Below are positions 14,370 to 20,550 of a stretch of 48,126 nt of DNA, piece by piece. Every line of letters starts with the position of its first letter. Positions within the stretch are counted from its first letter, which is position 1. This DNA comes from Oscillospiraceae bacterium (lineage in GTDB: Bacteria; Bacillota; Clostridia; Oscillospirales; Oscillospiraceae), in contig WQVH01000009.1 in assembly GCA_009781695.1 (NCBI GenBank), forward strand, positions 1 to 48,126. The letters run 5' to 3'. A program made the translations under genes and the position numbers. The notes beneath the pieces were generated by a model. That model saw only the letters and a program-made list of their open reading frames with translations, did no database searches and was not told the origin of the DNA.

Positions 14370-14747
14370 GTGGGTATGAGTATCTACCTGACAGAAGCGG
14401 AAAGAAAACTTGCAGAGCTCATTTGGAAAGTGCATGTCATTGCATCGCCGGATCTGGTGTCGCTTGCGGAGCAAGAACTGGGATGGAAAAAATCGACAAC
14501 GTACACAGTCTTAAAAAAGCTGTGCGACAAAGGCGTATTCAAAAATGAAAATGCGAATGTGTCGGTTTTGCTCACCAGCGAAGAGCAAATGACACGCCAG
14601 AGCCAACGCTACGTTGAGGACACATTCGGTGGGTCACTGCCCAATTTTATCGCAGCATTTGTTGGCGGAGGAAAGCTTACGGCAGAAAAAGCATCAGAGC
14701 TAAGACGGCTTATTGATGCGCTGGATGAGGGCGATTTAAATGAATAA
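14370..14747 (+). CDS. BlaI/MecI/CopY family repressor
   Basis: This is a winged-helix repressor of about 125 aa. The N-terminal half (LTEAERKLAELIWK, then WKKSTTYTVLKKLCDKGVF) has the characteristic recognition helix of BlaI/MecI, and the C-terminal helices (about 75-125) would dimerise. In this family the M56 partner protease triggers cleavage of the repressor. The start is GTG 14370, seven bases after a G-rich ribosome binding site; ATG 14376 is an alternative. It overlaps the M56 gene by 8 bases. It probably represses its own operon through the dyads at 14270-14313. Confidence 0.93.
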   Translation: MGMSIYLTEAERKLAELIWKVHVIASPDLVSLAEQELGWKKSTTYTVLKKLCDKGVFKNENANVSVLLTSEEQMTRQSQRYVEDTFGGSLPNFIAAFVGGGKLTAEKASELRRLIDALDEGDLNE

Positions 14748-15729
14748 TATACTGATTACGATTTTAAATATGAGCTTGACCGGAGTGTTTGTGATAACAG
14801 TAATATGTGCTGCCCGATTTGCTTTGAAGAAATTTCCGAAGATTATTTCATACTGCTTGTGGGGCGTGGTGGGTTTTCGGCTTGTTTTTCCATTTTCAAT
14901 TGAAAGTGCATGGAGTTTGATACCGTTTAATGCACAGATCATATCGTCGGATATGGCCATGTCGCAGGCATTGCAAGGAGTGCCGCTTGTGGGCGGTGCG
15001 GTCTATGGAGATCCGGTTCAACTATGGATCACTATTGGTCTGTCGGTATGGCTCTTAGGCGTCGCAGTCATGCTCCTTTATGGTGTGCTATCATATGTGA
15101 TTCTGAGGAGAAAATTAAAAGGTGCCGTTCATGCAGGGACAAATATATATGAGGCACAAATGATCAAAACGCCATTTGTATTTGGTATTTTTTCTCCGAA
15201 GATTTTTTTGCCGGACAATTTAACGGCGGGGGAGCGCAAATATATTGTGCTCCACGAGCAAACACATATCAAAAGACGTGACCATGTCATAAAGTGTGCA
15301 GCATATTTGATACTGTGTGTCCATTGGTTTAATCCGTTGGTTTGGTTGGCCTTTGTGCTTATGAGCATGGATATGGAAATGTCATGTGATGAAAGTGTAT
15401 TAAAAGAATTAGGTGGTGAGCCGAAGCGGGAATATTCTATGGTCTTGTTGTCACTTGCCAGTGAGCGGCGTGTGATCAATGGAGGCATTCCGGCGTTTGG
15501 TGATGGGAATATTAAGGCGAGGATAAGCAATGTACTTAGGCTAAAAAAGCAATCGCGTGCAGTTTCCTGTGTGCTCATGGCACTCGTAGTGGCGCTGAGT
15601 TTGGGATTGGCTGTCAATAGCATTGCAGTTGGATATATCAGCTCGGAGTTCGGACAGTATGATGATGCAGGTGGGATGCCAACGGATGCTTCCGATTTTG
15701 TTTTTGAGCGATGGCAATGTTGTGATTAG
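14740..15729 (+). CDS. M56 family (BlaR1/MecR1-like) membrane metallopeptidase
   Basis: This 329-aa protein has four membrane segments (about residues 5-25, 36-52, 97-121 and 274-296) and a gluzincin active site, HEQTH (172-176), with a downstream glutamate in DMEMSCDESV. In BlaR1 systems such proteases destroy the BlaI repressor after a signal. Here the protein ends soon after the last helix with a short tail, without the penicillin-binding sensor domain, so it must sense something else or through a partner. The lipoprotein gene that follows 33 bp downstream may be the effector or the sensor. It overlaps the repressor gene by 8 bases. Confidence 0.9.
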   Translation: MNNILITILNMSLTGVFVITVICAARFALKKFPKIISYCLWGVVGFRLVFPFSIESAWSLIPFNAQIISSDMAMSQALQGVPLVGGAVYGDPVQLWITIGLSVWLLGVAVMLLYGVLSYVILRRKLKGAVHAGTNIYEAQMIKTPFVFGIFSPKIFLPDNLTAGERKYIVLHEQTHIKRRDHVIKCAAYLILCVHWFNPLVWLAFVLMSMDMEMSCDESVLKELGGEPKREYSMVLLSLASERRVINGGIPAFGDGNIKARISNVLRLKKQSRAVSCVLMALVVALSLGLAVNSIAVGYISSEFGQYDDAGGMPTDASDFVFERWQCCD

Positions 15730-15762: not shown

Positions 15763-16341
15763 TTGAAGAAGATAGGTTTGGTGATTGTAGGCGTTGCCTG
15801 TATGGCACTGCTCTTCGGATGCAGCAGCCCAGAGCCAGCACACGATGCTGCAAGCGTTGCAGATCCGCTCGATGTTGCGGTGCATGAAGCACATCTTGCA
15901 GAGCCGGAAGACAACGAAATTCAGTCCAATGTTGCGCCGGATGAAGAAATTTCTGTGGAGCGGGTAAATTTTGCAGAGCTATTCGATGTTGCGCTAGAGG
16001 ATGAGTATTTCATGAAAACTGTAGATGCTGTTTTTGCAGATTTTAGCAATTACATAGGGAAAACAGTAAGGCTGGAAGGTGTGTTTGAATATTTTGGAAT
16101 GGACACGATTTATCGCCAAGTCTTCAGACGTGCCGGTACATGTTGAGGCCCTGACGGAAACGTAAGCCTTCTGGTAGAATGGCAAAATGACAATGACAAT
16201 GTGTATGCAGACCTTAATGACTGGGTAGAGGTTATAGGGAAATTCGGATTTATTGAAAGAGATGGTGTGCGGCTTATGGGCATACATCTTGATGCACTCA
16301 ATGTACTTGAAGTGCGCGGCAATGAGTTCATTCGGTCATAA
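15763..16341 (+). CDS. Candidate selenocysteine lipoprotein (Cys-Sec motif)
   Basis: The start is TTG 15763 after GAGAGGGAAG. A lipoprotein signal (LLFGC, lipid Cys20) is followed by an acidic linker and a folded domain (about 68-192). The frame meets TGA at 16144-16146 directly after TGT (Cys127), then continues 64 more codons to TAA 16341 with convincing protein sequence (LLVEWQNDND, DWVEVIGKFGF, LDALNVLEVRGNEF). From memory, Cys-containing relatives in Clostridia and the C-terminal domain of DUF1980/YcgQ-type proteins have Cys-Cys followed by G-x-D-G here, so UGA stands where the second Cys is expected. A SECIS-like hairpin starts 19 nt after the UGA (16166-16183). UGA is a normal stop elsewhere in the window. 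The alternative is a Cys-to-stop pseudogene. The operon with BlaI and M56 suggests inducible expression outside the membrane, perhaps in thiol or metal chemistry. Confidence 0.72.
16144..16183 (+). promoter_or_regulatory. UGA codon and bacterial SECIS-like hairpin
   Basis: After UGA (16144-16146), GCC (16166-16168) and TTCT (16169-16172) pair with AGAA (16176-16179) and GGC (16181-16183), with U16180 bulged and GGU (16173-16175) as the apical loop. The loop begins 26 nt after the UGA, inside the 16-37 nt range described for bacterial SECIS elements, and starts with GG as SelB-binding loops do. The bulged U is on the 3' side, whereas in E. coli fdhF it is on the 5' side. Confidence 0.62.
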
Positions 16342-16372: not shown

Positions 16373-16479
16373 TTATAGAGACGATCGCCCTTGGTCGCTC
16401 ATCGAAAAGAGAAATTTTGCGGATAATCAAACTGCGCAAGAGCAACCCTGCGGGCGACCAAGGGCGATCGTCTCTATAA
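16373..16479. repeat. Long perfect inverted repeat (26-bp arms)
   Basis: The left arm 16373-16398 (TTATAGAGACGATCGCCC...) is exactly complementary to the right arm 16454-16479 (...GGGCGATCGTCTCTATAA) around a 55-bp centre. It lies between the end of the selenoprotein candidate (plus) and the end of pilT (minus). It may act as a two-way terminator or be a small non-autonomous mobile element. No target duplication is obvious beyond the arms. Confidence 0.85.
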
Positions 16480-16542: not shown

Positions 16543-17601
16543 CTAACTATTTCCGATCTGACGGATCACTTGCTCCTGATTTGAAGCATTCTTAATCGCT
16601 GTCTCTTTAGAGATATCGCCATTTCGATATAACTTCATAATATAAGCATCCATACCGATCATGCCATCTTGCGCCGAGGTCTGAATGATGCTATCGACCT
16701 GATGTGTCTTGGCTTCGCGTATGATATTGCTGATGGCATTATTGACTTGCATGATTTCAAACGCAGGAATGGACTTGCCTTCCATATTGGGAAGCAGTCT
16801 CTGCGAAACGACCATGCGCAGCACCATAGACAGCTGTACACGTATTTGTTGTTGCTGCTCAGGTGGGAAAATATCAATCATCCTGTCGATCGTATTGGCA
16901 GCGCCCACCGTATGCAAGGTCGAAATAACCAGATGACCTGTTTCTGCTGCGGTAATCGCAGTCTTTATGGTCTCATGGTCACGCATTTCACCCAAGAGAA
17001 TGATATCAGGCACCTGACGCATACATGCTCTGAGTGCAATAGCGTAAGACTCAGTATCTGTAGACACCTCACGTTGTGTGACCAGACTCTGACTATCTCT
17101 ATGCAGAAATTCTATAGGATCTTCTAATGTAATGATATGACAATTTCTGCTTTTGTTGATTGCATCAATAATACAAGCCAGCGTCGTGGACTTGCCGCCC
17201 CCGGCAGGGCCTGTGACCAGCACCAGACCATTGGTTTCATCAGCGATCCTCATGACACCATCCGGGATCAAAAGGTCTTTATACGCCGGGATTGAAAACA
17301 ACACGACCCGTATGATTGCCGCCATAGTGCTGCGCTGACGAAAGGCATTGACTCGAAATCTCGCAAGGCCGGGTACGGTGACAGGAAAATCGTCATCTCC
17401 GGTTGCGAGATACTTGTCCATAGACCGCTTACCCAGCTCATACAGGCCGGTGATCAAAATCTCCGCATCAGGCGGCATGATGATTCCGCTGTCTTCAGAT
17501 TTGATTATGCCATTGATCTTAAACGAGATATCACGGCCTGCTCCGATGAAAATATCCGAAGCACTTTTTTCAACCGCTTTAGTTAACCAATCAATTACCA
17601 A
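16543..17601 (-). CDS. pilT: PilT-type twitching/retraction ATPase
   Basis: This hexameric type IV pilus motor has all landmarks of PilT: Walker A GPAGGGKSTT (134-143, numbering from GTG 17610), Asp box ITLEDPIEF (160-168), Walker B ILLGEMRD (204-211) and His box GHLVISTLHT (225-234), with the C-terminal VSQRLLP segment. GTG 17610 is an option but touches the ribosome binding site AAGGGGTG, so TTG 17601 is preferred. It is the last gene of the minus-strand pilus cluster and the only motor ATPase in the window; no PilB-type extension ATPase is present here. It may power pilus assembly alone, or PilB may lie elsewhere. Confidence 0.93.
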   Translation of the reverse strand: MVIDWLTKAVEKSASDIFIGAGRDISFKINGIIKSEDSGIIMPPDAEILITGLYELGKRSMDKYLATGDDDFPVTVPGLARFRVNAFRQRSTMAAIIRVVLFSIPAYKDLLIPDGVMRIADETNGLVLVTGPAGGGKSTTLACIIDAINKSRNCHIITLEDPIEFLHRDSQSLVTQREVSTDTESYAIALRACMRQVPDIILLGEMRDHETIKTAITAAETGHLVISTLHTVGAANTIDRMIDIFPPEQQQQIRVQLSMVLRMVVSQRLLPNMEGKSIPAFEIMQVNNAISNIIREAKTHQVDSIIQTSAQDGMIGMDAYIMKLYRNGDISKETAIKNASNQEQVIRQIGNS

Positions 17602-17646
17602 TGGGTTCACCCCTTCCTAAACTCAATCTGCCGGGGAGGCCATGAT

Positions 17647-18102
17647 TTACCAAGGTAAATCATCCCCCAAGTCGATTCCGGGCGGACCCGGATGTACATT
17701 CAGACCTGCATCATATGTCCACTCTCTCGCATTATACATGCGCCAGCCTTGTATCCGGTGCGTGCCATCATAGATCAAAAGCTGAACAAAAATCGCAAGA
17801 TCATCATTAATCGGTGCAGAAAATATGACCATTTCGCCTCCGGTATAAAAGTCAAACTCTGTATGTATATCTACACCTTGCACACTTGAAGGGATGGACT
17901 CCGCCTCAAACAAATCAGCGACAATACTATTGGCCAGCGCATCCGCTTCGAAGAACCCTACAACTAGCCGAGCCTCACTGGAGACGAGCGCTTTGTCATT
18001 GGATGCAACAACATATGTAATAAGTGAAAAAACCGTGAGACAAAGCACCGCAAACACGAGGATAATAGATGCACTGCCAACGCCGATTCCGCCTTTATTC
18101 AT
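17647..18102 (-). CDS. Pilus-cluster protein with single N-terminal helix
   Basis: This 151-aa protein begins MNKGGIGVGSASIILVFAVLCLTVFSL, a pilin-like hydrophobic helix (about residues 9-33) with a short basic leader, and then has a globular extracytoplasmic part ending in a Pro/Gly/Asp-rich tail. The classic prepilin cleavage motif (G followed by F/M-TLxE) is not clear, so it may be a minor pseudopilin or a membrane-anchored helper. It sits 46 bp before pilT in the same direction. Function beyond pilus association is unknown. Confidence 0.7.
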   Translation of the reverse strand: MNKGGIGVGSASIILVFAVLCLTVFSLITYVVASNDKALVSSEARLVVGFFEADALANSIVADLFEAESIPSSVQGVDIHTEFDFYTGGEMVIFSAPINDDLAIFVQLLIYDGTHRIQGWRMYNAREWTYDAGLNVHPGPPGIDLGDDLPW

Positions 18103-18159
18103 TCTGATTCACTCCTTTTGGAGATCGATTTTGAGAATGGAGTACTAGGTAAGCGATGA

Positions 18160-18597
18160 TTAAGAGGGAGAGAAAATTGCGAGCGGGAATGTGACCAGCT
18201 CATCACCGGTGGTTCTGGAAACAGAAATCTCAAATGATAATAAATGTGGATTTAAAGATGAGGAATCAATCAGACGCAAGATATATTCCGCATCACTAAA
18301 ATCTGACATCTGCCAGTTGCTGTCAAAAAACACAAGCCTTGCCTGAGTGCCTCTTTCGGTAAAGCTCTCAGGCCAACCGCCTATTTGCGCAGCGAGATCA
18401 AAGTCACCGGATGTGGCTCTGACCGTTTCGGCTACACTCTCAGCAGCAAGCAGGGCATTGCTGATATCCCTTGAGTCTCTGGCCAGAAAATATGCGTTGG
18501 CTAAAATACTGATACAAGCCGCTGCACAAATCGCAAAAACAGCAATGACAATCAGTTGCTCAATTAAAAAGAGTGTGGATTTAGATCGAGATCTCAT
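18160..18597 (-). CDS. Type IV prepilin-like protein
   Basis: This 145-aa protein has a basic leader (MRSRSKS) followed by TLFLIEQLIVIAVFAICAAACI, where the Glu at about position 13 and the long hydrophobic helix match the N-terminus of type IV prepilins. The usual Gly at the cleavage site is replaced by Ser. The rest would be a globular pilin head exposed outside. The start overlaps the stop of the upstream DUF4860-like gene as ATGA. It is likely a minor pilin of the cluster 16.5-20.6 kb. Confidence 0.75.
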   Translation of the reverse strand: MRSRSKSTLFLIEQLIVIAVFAICAAACISILANAYFLARDSRDISNALLAAESVAETVRATSGDFDLAAQIGGWPESFTERGTQARLVFFDSNWQMSDFSDAEYILRLIDSSSLNPHLLSFEISVSRTTGDELVTFPLAIFSPS

Positions 18598-19118
18598 TCA
18601 AGGCTCACCTCCTGCGCAGTATCATCATCGGATAAATGGCCTACCCCGGCAGTGCGCGGGTATAAAATCAAGCTTCTGGTGCCTGCGGTTATTTTCAAAA
18701 GCCCTCCGTCTAACGTCTCAAATGCAATATGATCCAGCGGCATAATGAGCGTACCATCGGCAGGGGAGAAGTCCAGCTCTACTTCGCTGAATATCTCACG
18801 AATCCAGCCATCATAATGAAAGATAGACGTGCGAAAATGTCGTGCACTTAAATACTCATCATAAACCAGCGCCGACAATCCGCTAAATTCATCGATATGG
18901 ATTCTGCCGCTGTCATCATTATTTCTGACCTTGGTGCGGATGTATGAAAGCGCTGTACGCTCATCTTGCTCTTCACGAGATATGGTGGTCATATTTTGAT
19001 AAATACTCGCACCCAACATCAGCACCATGAGCACCGAAACGGCAAATATGCAAAAGATAATGAGCACAAAAACAGTGTCTATCCTTTGTTTGTTATAAAA
19101 TCTCTTCATATTTCTCAT
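18594..19118 (-). CDS. DUF4860-like pilus-cluster protein
   Basis: This 174-aa protein has one N-terminal membrane helix (about residues 14-38) and an extracytoplasmic domain containing RTALSYIRTKVRNNDDSGRI, the pattern I associate with DUF4860. This family is found next to pilin genes in Clostridia. It probably acts as a minor pilin or assembly subunit. Both ends overlap neighbours by 4 bases (ATGA), so expression is strictly coupled. No enzymatic motif is seen. Confidence 0.78.
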   Translation of the reverse strand: MRNMKRFYNKQRIDTVFVLIIFCIFAVSVLMVLMLGASIYQNMTTISREEQDERTALSYIRTKVRNNDDSGRIHIDEFSGLSALVYDEYLSARHFRTSIFHYDGWIREIFSEVELDFSPADGTLIMPLDHIAFETLDGGLLKITAGTRSLILYPRTAGVGHLSDDDTAQEVSLE

Positions 19119-19441
19119 AATTCAATCACCGCAATATCCGGGAAAATGTTGGAGGCGAATACATCATAGTGCACGACAAATCTATCCCAATCTATATGCA
19201 CTCCAAAATTCTCTTCAATATATTGAATGCTTTCCGGGTAACGTCCTTCAATCGCATAGGCCGTGACGACCGCACGACGAATGCTGTCTTCGAGAATCCG
19301 TTTGGATTCGGCTCTGCTGGCCTCTTCGGTCTGACGTAAACCAAAGACCACCATCACGATCACCACTATTGTAAACAGCAATGGCAATACTGCCCCTTGA
19401 AGGAAATCTACGCCGCTTTTTTTATAAATACTCTTTTTCAA
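19115..19441 (-). CDS. Small pilus-cluster membrane protein
   Basis: TTG 19441 with GAGGG 8-9 bases upstream gives 108 aa (MKKSIYKKSGVDFLQGAV...). A longer TTG start at 19468 has poorer spacing. One membrane helix (LPLLFTIVVIVMVVFGL) is followed by RAESKRILEDSIRRAVVTAYAIEGRYPES, the helical stretch seen in pilin-like proteins of these clusters, and then a short C-terminal part. It lies between pilC and the DUF4860-like gene and is coupled to the latter by ATGA. It is likely a minor pilin-like subunit. Confidence 0.72.
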   Translation of the reverse strand: MKKSIYKKSGVDFLQGAVLPLLFTIVVIVMVVFGLRQTEEASRAESKRILEDSIRRAVVTAYAIEGRYPESIQYIEENFGVHIDWDRFVVHYDVFASNIFPDIAVIEL

Positions 19442-19503
19442 TGTGATACCCTCATTTCCAAAAAGCAAATGTCCTTAGACATTAGTTACTGTGCAGTGCC
19501 CCA

Positions 19504-20550
19504 CTACCCAATCGCTGTCATGATGCCAATAAGCGGCAGCATAACAGACAATAAAATGACACCGACGATGATCGACGAAATGATGACCAAAGTAGGTTCA
19601 ATTCTACCGACAATCCGATCAATACTATCAGTCACATCAAGATCGCTGCGTCTGGCTATTTCTGACATGGCCTCATCAGCCTTTCCGCTCCGAGAACCAA
19701 TAGAGAGCATCTTACCATCCTGAGCAGACAATATACCGGATCCGGTCAGCGCTTCGTGCAGTGGACGGCCTGAACTGATGAGTACATCACACTTCCTATG
19801 CTTTTCATCAACCGCCCTTGAACCTCCGCTGACATTTGCGGCGAGATCTATCGCATCTTGCGTATCCAAACCACTGGCCATCGCCAACCGCATGGCAAAT
19901 ATGAAGCGAGAGGATGCGATTTTGCCAAAAATGCCTTTGCTGCCCCATTTGTTTGAAAAAGCCTTTCCGAGCTTGCTGCGCAACGGAGGCAATATCGCCA
20001 GCACCAGAACAAAAAGAAACAAGATGGCAAAGATGATGGCAATCACAACCGCCGCACCGCCAAGCCACTGACCGAAATCCATCAGCGCAGTAGCCAGTGG
20101 TGACATTTGTGTGCCAAGCCGTGCGAAGACATCATTGAAAATAGGCAGCACTTGAACAATAAGCACAAGCACAACAACGATCATAAGCACCAGCAAAATC
20201 GCCGGGTACAAAACTGAGTTTTTGATCGTCACCGAGAGCCTAACCTGCCGCTCATAATATTCTGAGAGCGCTTTTAGCGTCTCGACCAACCGGCCGGTTC
20301 TCTCCCCGATTTCCACCATGTGGATCATATATCTCGGGAAAACGCCCGACTCCCTGAGCGCAAGCGAGAACTGGTCACCCATCTCCAGCTGATCTACCAG
20401 AGCTTGAAGTACGGCCTGTCCCTCTTTACTGGACTCATCGTCCCTGAGGACATGTACACTATCGCTGACGGTGAGACCTGCATCCAATAGCATTGCAAGC
20501 TCCGCACAGAGCATGGATAGGTACGTGTTTGTTAAGATTCTCTTTCCCAC
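19504..20550 (-). CDS. pilC: Type II secretion/type IV pilus inner-membrane platform protein (PilC/GspF)
   Basis: This 348-aa polytopic protein has two copies of the T2SSF domain (about 10-135 and 215-340), each with a cytoplasmic helical bundle followed by membrane helices. The motif EIGERTGRLVETLKALSEYYERQ is diagnostic, and the second copy repeats it as SIGSRSGKADEAMSEIARR. GspF/PilC forms the platform on which the pilus ATPase acts. The start is GTG 20550 with GAGGT 6-7 bases upstream. It is the first gene of the pilus cluster. No PilB, prepilin peptidase or obvious major pilin is present in the window. Confidence 0.92.
   Translation of the reverse strand: MGKRILTNTYLSMLCAELAMLLDAGLTVSDSVHVLRDDESSKEGQAVLQALVDQLEMGDQFSLALRESGVFPRYMIHMVEIGERTGRLVETLKALSEYYERQVRLSVTIKNSVLYPAILLVLMIVVVLVLIVQVLPIFNDVFARLGTQMSPLATALMDFGQWLGGAAVVIAIIFAILFLFVLVLAILPPLRSKLGKAFSNKWGSKGIFGKIASSRFIFAMRLAMASGLDTQDAIDLAANVSGGSRAVDEKHRKCDVLISSGRPLHEALTGSGILSAQDGKMLSIGSRSGKADEAMSEIARRSDLDVTDSIDRIVGRIEPTLVIISSIIVGVILLSVMLPLIGIMTAIG

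Follow-up and report, generated by a model that had tools for sequence, protein, structure and literature searches.

Three genes lie in succession on the forward strand of the window, which is the whole stretch of 48,126 nucleotides that was analyzed. The first (14370..14747) codes for a BlaI/Penicillinase_R-like repressor (PF03965, E 9.4e-18), and the second (14740..15729) codes for a BlaR1-like M56 membrane protease of 329 amino acids (PF05569, E 7.2e-52) that ends with the residues VFERWQCCD. The third (15763..16341) is predicted from its reading frame, a Pfam match, the alignment of homologues and the pattern of selection to code for a selenocysteine (Sec) lipoprotein of 192 amino acids, with a TTG start codon, a TAA stop codon and a DUF1980_C-like domain. 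Its predicted lipoprotein signal peptide (15763..15822) ends with LLFGC and extends to the lipobox cysteine Cys20 (codon 15820-15822), which is constant in all 23 rows of the relevant alignment (A2). The product is likely to be lipid-anchored on the outside of the membrane.

The 192-residue frame contains a single TGA, at codon 128 (16144-16146), and 64 codons separate this triplet from the terminal TAA (16339-16341). Directly before it stands TGT, and the pair TGT TGA (16141..16146) would thus specify Cys127-Sec128 at the place where, according to the frame and the homologues, this family has its Cys-Cys motif; the local motif reads TCUG. The sequence-only reading of this DNA had described a lipoprotein frame that meets UGA right after a Cys codon and then continues to a TAA, and had warned that gene callers would cut the protein at residue 127. 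The frame at 15763-16341 has precisely this form, and under translation table 11 its open reading frame ends at 127 amino acids.

When Cys is placed at the TGA, the Pfam domain DUF1980_C (PF21537) matches residues 74-164 and so spans the TGA (E 1.2e-6), with a score of 28.7 bits that exceeds the gathering cut-off of 25.9 bits, although the score drops to 23.1 bits, below that cut-off, when the genome is searched with the stop read through. Because the match crosses the TGA, the C-terminal part is genuine domain sequence, and it can also be aligned with Cys homologues. The model TIGR03943 matches residues 8-177 of the lipoprotein at 27.3 bits (E 2e-6), and its curated cut-off of 88.8 bits is not reached. 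The proposed tie to the DUF1980/YcgQ family consequently stands at the level of the domain and falls at the level of TIGR03943 membership; toward the TIGR03943/YcgQ permease subunit there is a weak profile likeness, far below the cut-off, of a gene product that is itself a lipoprotein. The closer counterparts are Cys-Cys lipoproteins with a DUF1980_C domain from Clostridia and Treponema, which share the domain, the lipobox Cys and the position of the motif, and which show 19-43% identity to the window's protein among the rows aligned. They differ in carrying CC rather than CU, and in usually lying behind a ZnuB-type permease gene whereas the Sec form lies behind a BlaI-M56 pair. Among solved structures, no relatives of the lipoprotein were found (best E 0.83, unrelated).

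The assertion that known relatives have Cys-Cys where the UGA stands is borne out by comparative analysis. Among 131 distinct homologous domains, 127 have CC at the motif, two have CU, one has YG (L151, genome G490) and one has NC (L035, genome G258). The two CU carriers are the window's gene and locus L038 from G304, a genome of the same genus. CC is likewise present in 12 loci from the class and in genome G528, which were examined after the 131-domain count. Matches were obtained in 12 of 300 genomes of the family, 11 of 19 of the genus, 89 of 394 of the order and 13 of 391 of the class, and from a GTDB contig search the best 80 of 189 loci were used. Of the 89 matching genomes in the order, 30 loci (the window among them) plus G528 were examined, and the rest were judged by stop count. 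Since these are capped or sampled sets in which many loci come from close relatives, including many treponemes, the locus counts do not represent independent events. Across these sets from the family, genus, order and class searches, no Sec form was found besides those of the window and G304. Four other matches in the order that contain a TGA (G387, G353, G337 and G528) were rejected as candidates, as the motif is CC in all four and their TGA is located elsewhere.

A quick tree built from 129 rows places the Sec pair in one clade (support 100) inside the Cys forms and beside L082 (support 95), a Cys form from Defluviitaleaceae, although the joining of the Sec pair with L082 must be treated with care because long branches lead both to the Sec pair and to L082. 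A single Cys-to-Sec change would explain the position that the Sec forms hold in this tree.

Over 2169 bp, the BlaI-M56-lipoprotein regions of G304 and of the window share 72.2% DNA identity. TGA occupies the same codon in both genomes, which differ in the triplet before it (TGT versus TGC). Among the 63 aligned codons past the TGA, 38 are identical, 16 differ synonymously and nine differ non-synonymously (dN 0.076, dS 0.78), with L038 of G304 serving as the one UGA-containing orthologue for this test. The 60 codons that precede the TGA yield closely similar values (dN 0.074, dS 0.99), and all 127 preceding codons, which include the variable N-terminal part, yield a dN of 0.186 and a dS of 1.13. 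The domain is equally constrained to either side of the TGA, a pattern that a real stop codon would not produce. Purifying selection past the TGA, taken together with the Cys/Sec pairing among homologues, constitutes the strongest evidence that this codon is read as Sec.

The genome to which the window belongs (2.2 Mb in 106 contigs, completeness 98.4, contamination 2.2) carries all the genes for Sec insertion that the sequence-only reading had proposed to look for, with two copies of each above the respective cut-offs. The tRNA-Sec genes score 66.5 and 55.8 bits (cut-off 47) and ARAGORN calls both as Sec, and the scores are 353.8 and 327.9 bits for selB (cut-off 242), 526.7 and 497.2 bits for selA (cut-off 268), and 355.7 and 334.7 bits for selD (cut-off 125). 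Each selD gene has one in-frame TGA of its own, in the context CGGU or QGGU. Furthermore, selA is present in eight of the 14 genomes of the genus that were queried, including G304. The sequence evidence strongly supports decoding of UGA128 as Sec by the organism's own SelA, SelB, SelD and tRNA-Sec, which gives a product of 192 rather than 127 residues.

The presence of two full Sec gene sets in one assembly, at C4:80382-84962 and on contigs C76/C78/C37 (L001, L002, L009, L010, L017-L020), is an observation in its own right. The selA gene on C76 shares 67-68% identity with its counterparts in G310 and G304, both of the same genus. In contrast, the selA gene on C4 reaches no more than 39-40% identity with the four copies from the genus to which it could be aligned (four of the eight selA loci of the genus gave alignments to the genome's own copies). 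Because of this low identity, the C4 set may represent a second system, a transfer or contamination.

Two explanations that dispense with Sec can be weighed against these data. Translation table 11 takes TGA as a stop and leaves a clean 127-amino-acid reading frame, as would be expected of a pseudogene, a sequencing error or a true stop with a functional 127-residue product. However, the Pfam domain crosses the TGA and the Cys homologues have the domain whole, while the codons past the TGA are under the constraint described above in an orthologue that has the same TGA. A read error would need to have occurred twice, given that the G304 region is only 72% identical in DNA. We therefore consider this explanation very improbable, and its pseudogene and read-error variants are rejected on the strength of the G304 orthologue. 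Even harder to credit is that the UGA is decoded as some other residue, whether by a reassigned code or by near-cognate suppression. The homologous residue is Cys and not Trp, the genome has tRNA-Sec and SelB, and TGA ends seven of the 38 long, non-overlapping reading frames that were called mechanically in the window. Reassignment of UGA is rejected on the basis of these TGA-terminated frames together with the Cys at the homologous position.

A candidate bacterial SECIS hairpin, GCC-UUCU-[GGU]-AGAA-u-GGC, appears in RNA folds at positions 16166..16183 of the forward strand and is identical in G304. The stem-loop begins 19 nt past the UGA, and its GGU loop (16173-16175) is located 26 nt past the UGA. 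The bacterial SECIS model given in a 2026 review specifies a loop of 3-9 nt, an upper stem of 4-16 bp, a G within the first two loop positions, a distance of 16-37 nt from the UGA and a minimum free energy (MFE) of at most -7.5 (PMC13188914). The GGU loop, the upper stem of 4 bp and the spacing of 26 nt all fit this model. Codon conservation is also higher in this region: between the window and G304, only one codon differs among the 13 that reach from the TGA to the hairpin's end, versus 24 of 50 later codons (Fisher p 0.010) and 28 of 60 codons before (p 0.011), although the boundary was chosen post hoc and the p value becomes 0.04 to 0.05 when 17 codons are taken, of which three are changed.

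Other properties of the hairpin are less favorable. The MFE of -8.1 applies to a 44-nt stretch past the UGA that folds as two hairpins, and the candidate hairpin alone reaches -4.5 to -6.0 kcal/mol. In some stretches it is not the best fold and another structure wins. Fold energies past the UGA resemble those of shuffled sequences (z -0.74 to 0.45 for five stretches). A strict bSECIS scan proved to be unspecific, in that neither the window nor L038 nor one of the selD genes was recovered, the other selD gene passed by means of a different hairpin, and positive calls were made for 252 of 1997 control TGAs as well as for 38 of 127 Cys homologues. With the model fit and the conservation on one side, and the weak hairpin, the shuffle-like energies and the unspecific scan on the other, the stem-loop with the GGU loop past UGA128 is a plausible candidate for a SECIS element.

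Taken together, these observations make us nearly certain that Sec is the meaning of this UGA, and we consider it very probable that the product is a selenoprotein anchored in the membrane on its extracytoplasmic side, namely a DUF1980_C-type lipoprotein in which Cys-Cys has become Cys-Sec. Exported selenoproteins have probable precedents in SaoB and SaoX. The former (NF040727) is similar to the protein described here in that a transporter-linked and presumably exported selenoprotein carries a CU motif; however, the lipoprotein matches neither NF040727 nor any other selenoprotein model of NCBIfam at E values up to 1. Table 1 of the 2026 review, which covers 119 selenoprotein families and subfamilies, lists both SaoB and SaoX as ABC substrate-binding selenoproteins and gives the CU motif for SaoB (PMC13188914), so that this motif has been recorded before in a selenoprotein of the substrate-binding kind. 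In term searches of the main text of the same review, DUF1980, PF21537, TIGR03943 and YcgQ were absent (PMC13188914). The earlier remark that exported Sec proteins are uncommon requires the caveat that SaoB and SaoX are listed.

Further selenoprotein literature includes deep-Sep (PMC12013277), a Sargasso study (PMC1088965) and a 2022 review (PMC9312934), and a DUF_1980 lipoprotein of Staphylococcus aureus is mentioned as having an unknown function (PMC5020093). Our searches found no literature that joins DUF1980 with selenoproteins. Searches for TIGR03943 or YcgQ gave nothing relevant by title, and nor, at the level of the search listings, did those that combined selenoproteins with BlaR1, the termite gut, znuA plus a lipoprotein, or export. 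Judged by its domain, we regard the Sec lipoprotein as a new selenoprotein family, and the findings point to exported selenoproteins of a family that is unrecorded so far.

The Cys forms reside mostly in znu-type operons. A gene for a ZnuB-type permease lies upstream on the same strand and within 1.5 kb, with a median gap of 59 nt, in 117 of the 130 loci that have at least 300 nt upstream (from L025-L160 and L199-L203, the two Sec loci included). Where the upstream sequence extends to 2.3 kb or more, a ZnuA-type binding protein is also encoded there in 41 of 74 loci. The closest Cys form, L082, is situated in an operon of this type. The window's own genome has a Cys paralogue on contig C8 that scores above the DUF1980_C cut-off and that is preceded by genes for ZnuA (PF01297), an ABC ATPase and an ABC-3 protein (PF00950), as assigned by Pfam. 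In G304, a CC protein encoded on contig C43 (E 2.8e-13 to profile A1) follows znu genes whose products are recognized as a permease by similarity and as ZnuA by Pfam; we regard this protein as a distant paralogue because it matches no Pfam family itself. From the operon context of the Cys forms we infer that DUF1980-type lipoproteins are likely to be extracytoplasmic helpers for zinc or a soft metal.

The Sec form has a different setting, and this difference is new: the Cys forms trail a ZnuB-type permease, and the Sec form instead trails BlaI and an M56 protease of the BlaR1 type. This repressor-protease gene pair precedes the Sec gene in the window as well as in G304, and no znu-like gene was found within the 48-kb window or within 14 kb around the G304 gene. 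Among 80 other loci (L050-L129, with flanks of up to 5 kb and often less), a BlaI-M56 pair is found at L075 only.

The M56 proteases of the two Sec operons extend merely 32 and 35 residues past query residue 297 and lack the long C-terminal part of their relatives. Their C-termini are VFERWQCCD in the window and VFEHWQCCDDGF in G304, with the common pattern VFE(R/H)WQCCD; both tails finish with WQCC plus one to four residues, and the linker ahead of the tail differs. Eleven distinct genes of the genus encode other M56 relatives that score above 200 bits, one of which is cut off before the region of query residue 297. The ten readable proteins have at least 101 residues past that point (101 to 290 in the eight that reach a stop codon), and CC occurs within the last 15 residues in none of these eight. 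Two distant M56 proteins, L185 (G307 C3; 112 bits) and L186 (G309 C32; 104 bits), do have CC within their last 15 residues, and hence a Cys-Cys end is not unique to the M56 proteases of Sec operons. With their Cys-rich C-terminal tails, L185 and L186 may function as thiol or metal sensors. Against NF000326, the model for the beta-lactam sensor BlaR1, the window's protease scores 95.6 bits, which does not reach the cut-off of 400, and it is without the C-terminal sensor domain.

The adjacent genes for an M56 protease and a BlaI-like repressor are reminiscent of antibiotic sensing by BlaR1-BlaI, a system whose membrane topology, proteolytic cleavage and usual gene order are established. The Sec operon departs from this system in that its M56 protease is without the large C-terminal part and a separate gene for a Sec lipoprotein comes next. 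If the topology of BlaR1 applies, then the M56 tail would lie outside, beside the lipoprotein. One can envision that the lipoprotein gene left its usual zinc-uptake operon and joined the BlaI-M56 operon, where its product would substitute for the sensor part that is missing from the protease. On the outward-facing side of the membrane, the CU pair would act as a site for a soft metal or for thiol redox chemistry, and together with the WQCC tail it might switch the protease, either by jointly binding a metal or through a selenosulfide/disulfide relay. On taking a soft metal or an oxidant, the CU pair would pass its state to M56 through this tail, and the switched protease would then cleave BlaI and derepress the operon.

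We judge that a role for the Sec lipoprotein as a partner of M56 is possible, though somewhat doubtful, and that the signal path from the CU pair through M56 to BlaI is a slightly more tentative proposal. The full version, a split selenium-based receptor in which a Cys-Sec lipoprotein replaces the BlaR1-type sensor part and signals via the Cys-Cys of the M56 tail, seems unlikely when taken as a whole, and the association of M56 with the lipoprotein is seen in two species only. Because Cys-pair paralogues lie behind znu genes in both genomes, M56 may just as well do no more than regulate the Sec copy, which would then be a metal or redox protein. For instance, the same selenoprotein may bind zinc or a soft metal as a helper like its Cys relatives, with Sec tuning the affinity and BlaI-M56 controlling expression only. 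The frequent ZnuB-type permease upstream of this family, the Pfam-confirmed ZnuA, ABC and ABC-3 genes in the genome's own operon and the placement of L082 all favor such a role. Set against it are the lack of znu genes near either Sec gene, the fact that the Cys-pair paralogues already occupy the position behind znu genes in both genomes, and the consideration that Sec would offer no obvious advantage in a plain zinc site. We would not bet on this helper role, although it deserves serious consideration.

A further alternative is that the same selenoprotein is a redox enzyme, such as an extracytoplasmic reductase that operates with a vicinal Cys-Sec selenosulfide. Animal thioredoxin reductase ends with Gly-Cys-Sec-Gly, and the TCUG motif of the lipoprotein is locally similar in kind. 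The 2026 review regards most uncharacterized selenoproteins as likely to serve redox functions (PMC13188914). However, DUF1980_C is the sole Pfam match, with no thioredoxin or flavin domain, and the frequent proximity of the family to znu genes speaks for metal. We consider a role as a redox enzyme improbable.

With the Sec lipoprotein, the prokaryotic selenoproteins appear to gain a domain family, namely an outer-face lipoprotein that arose by a plain Cys-to-Sec change within a parent family tied to zinc uptake. The Cys relatives, the paralogues with a Cys pair that the two Sec genomes retain and the exchange of operons amount to a clean natural experiment on the reason for which a cell would bear the cost of Sec. 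Moreover, the Sec operon suggests a testable Sec-dependent signal path, and the split receptor, if true, would be a Sec-dependent transcriptional switch at the cell surface. For the uncharacterized DUF1980-type lipoproteins in general, their position as the next gene after a ZnuB-type permease at most of the loci examined provides a functional lead.

Just 3' of the lipoprotein gene is a perfect inverted repeat of 26 nt (16373-16398 and 16454-16479, 55 nt apart), of which no second copy was found elsewhere in the genome; a search of the window against Rfam returned nothing at gathering scores. The repeat would form a strong hairpin between convergent genes and is perhaps a terminator. On its far side, at positions 16543-20550 of the reverse strand, are type IV pilus-like genes, which by eye resemble genes for a PilT-like ATPase, a PilC-like protein and pilin-like proteins.
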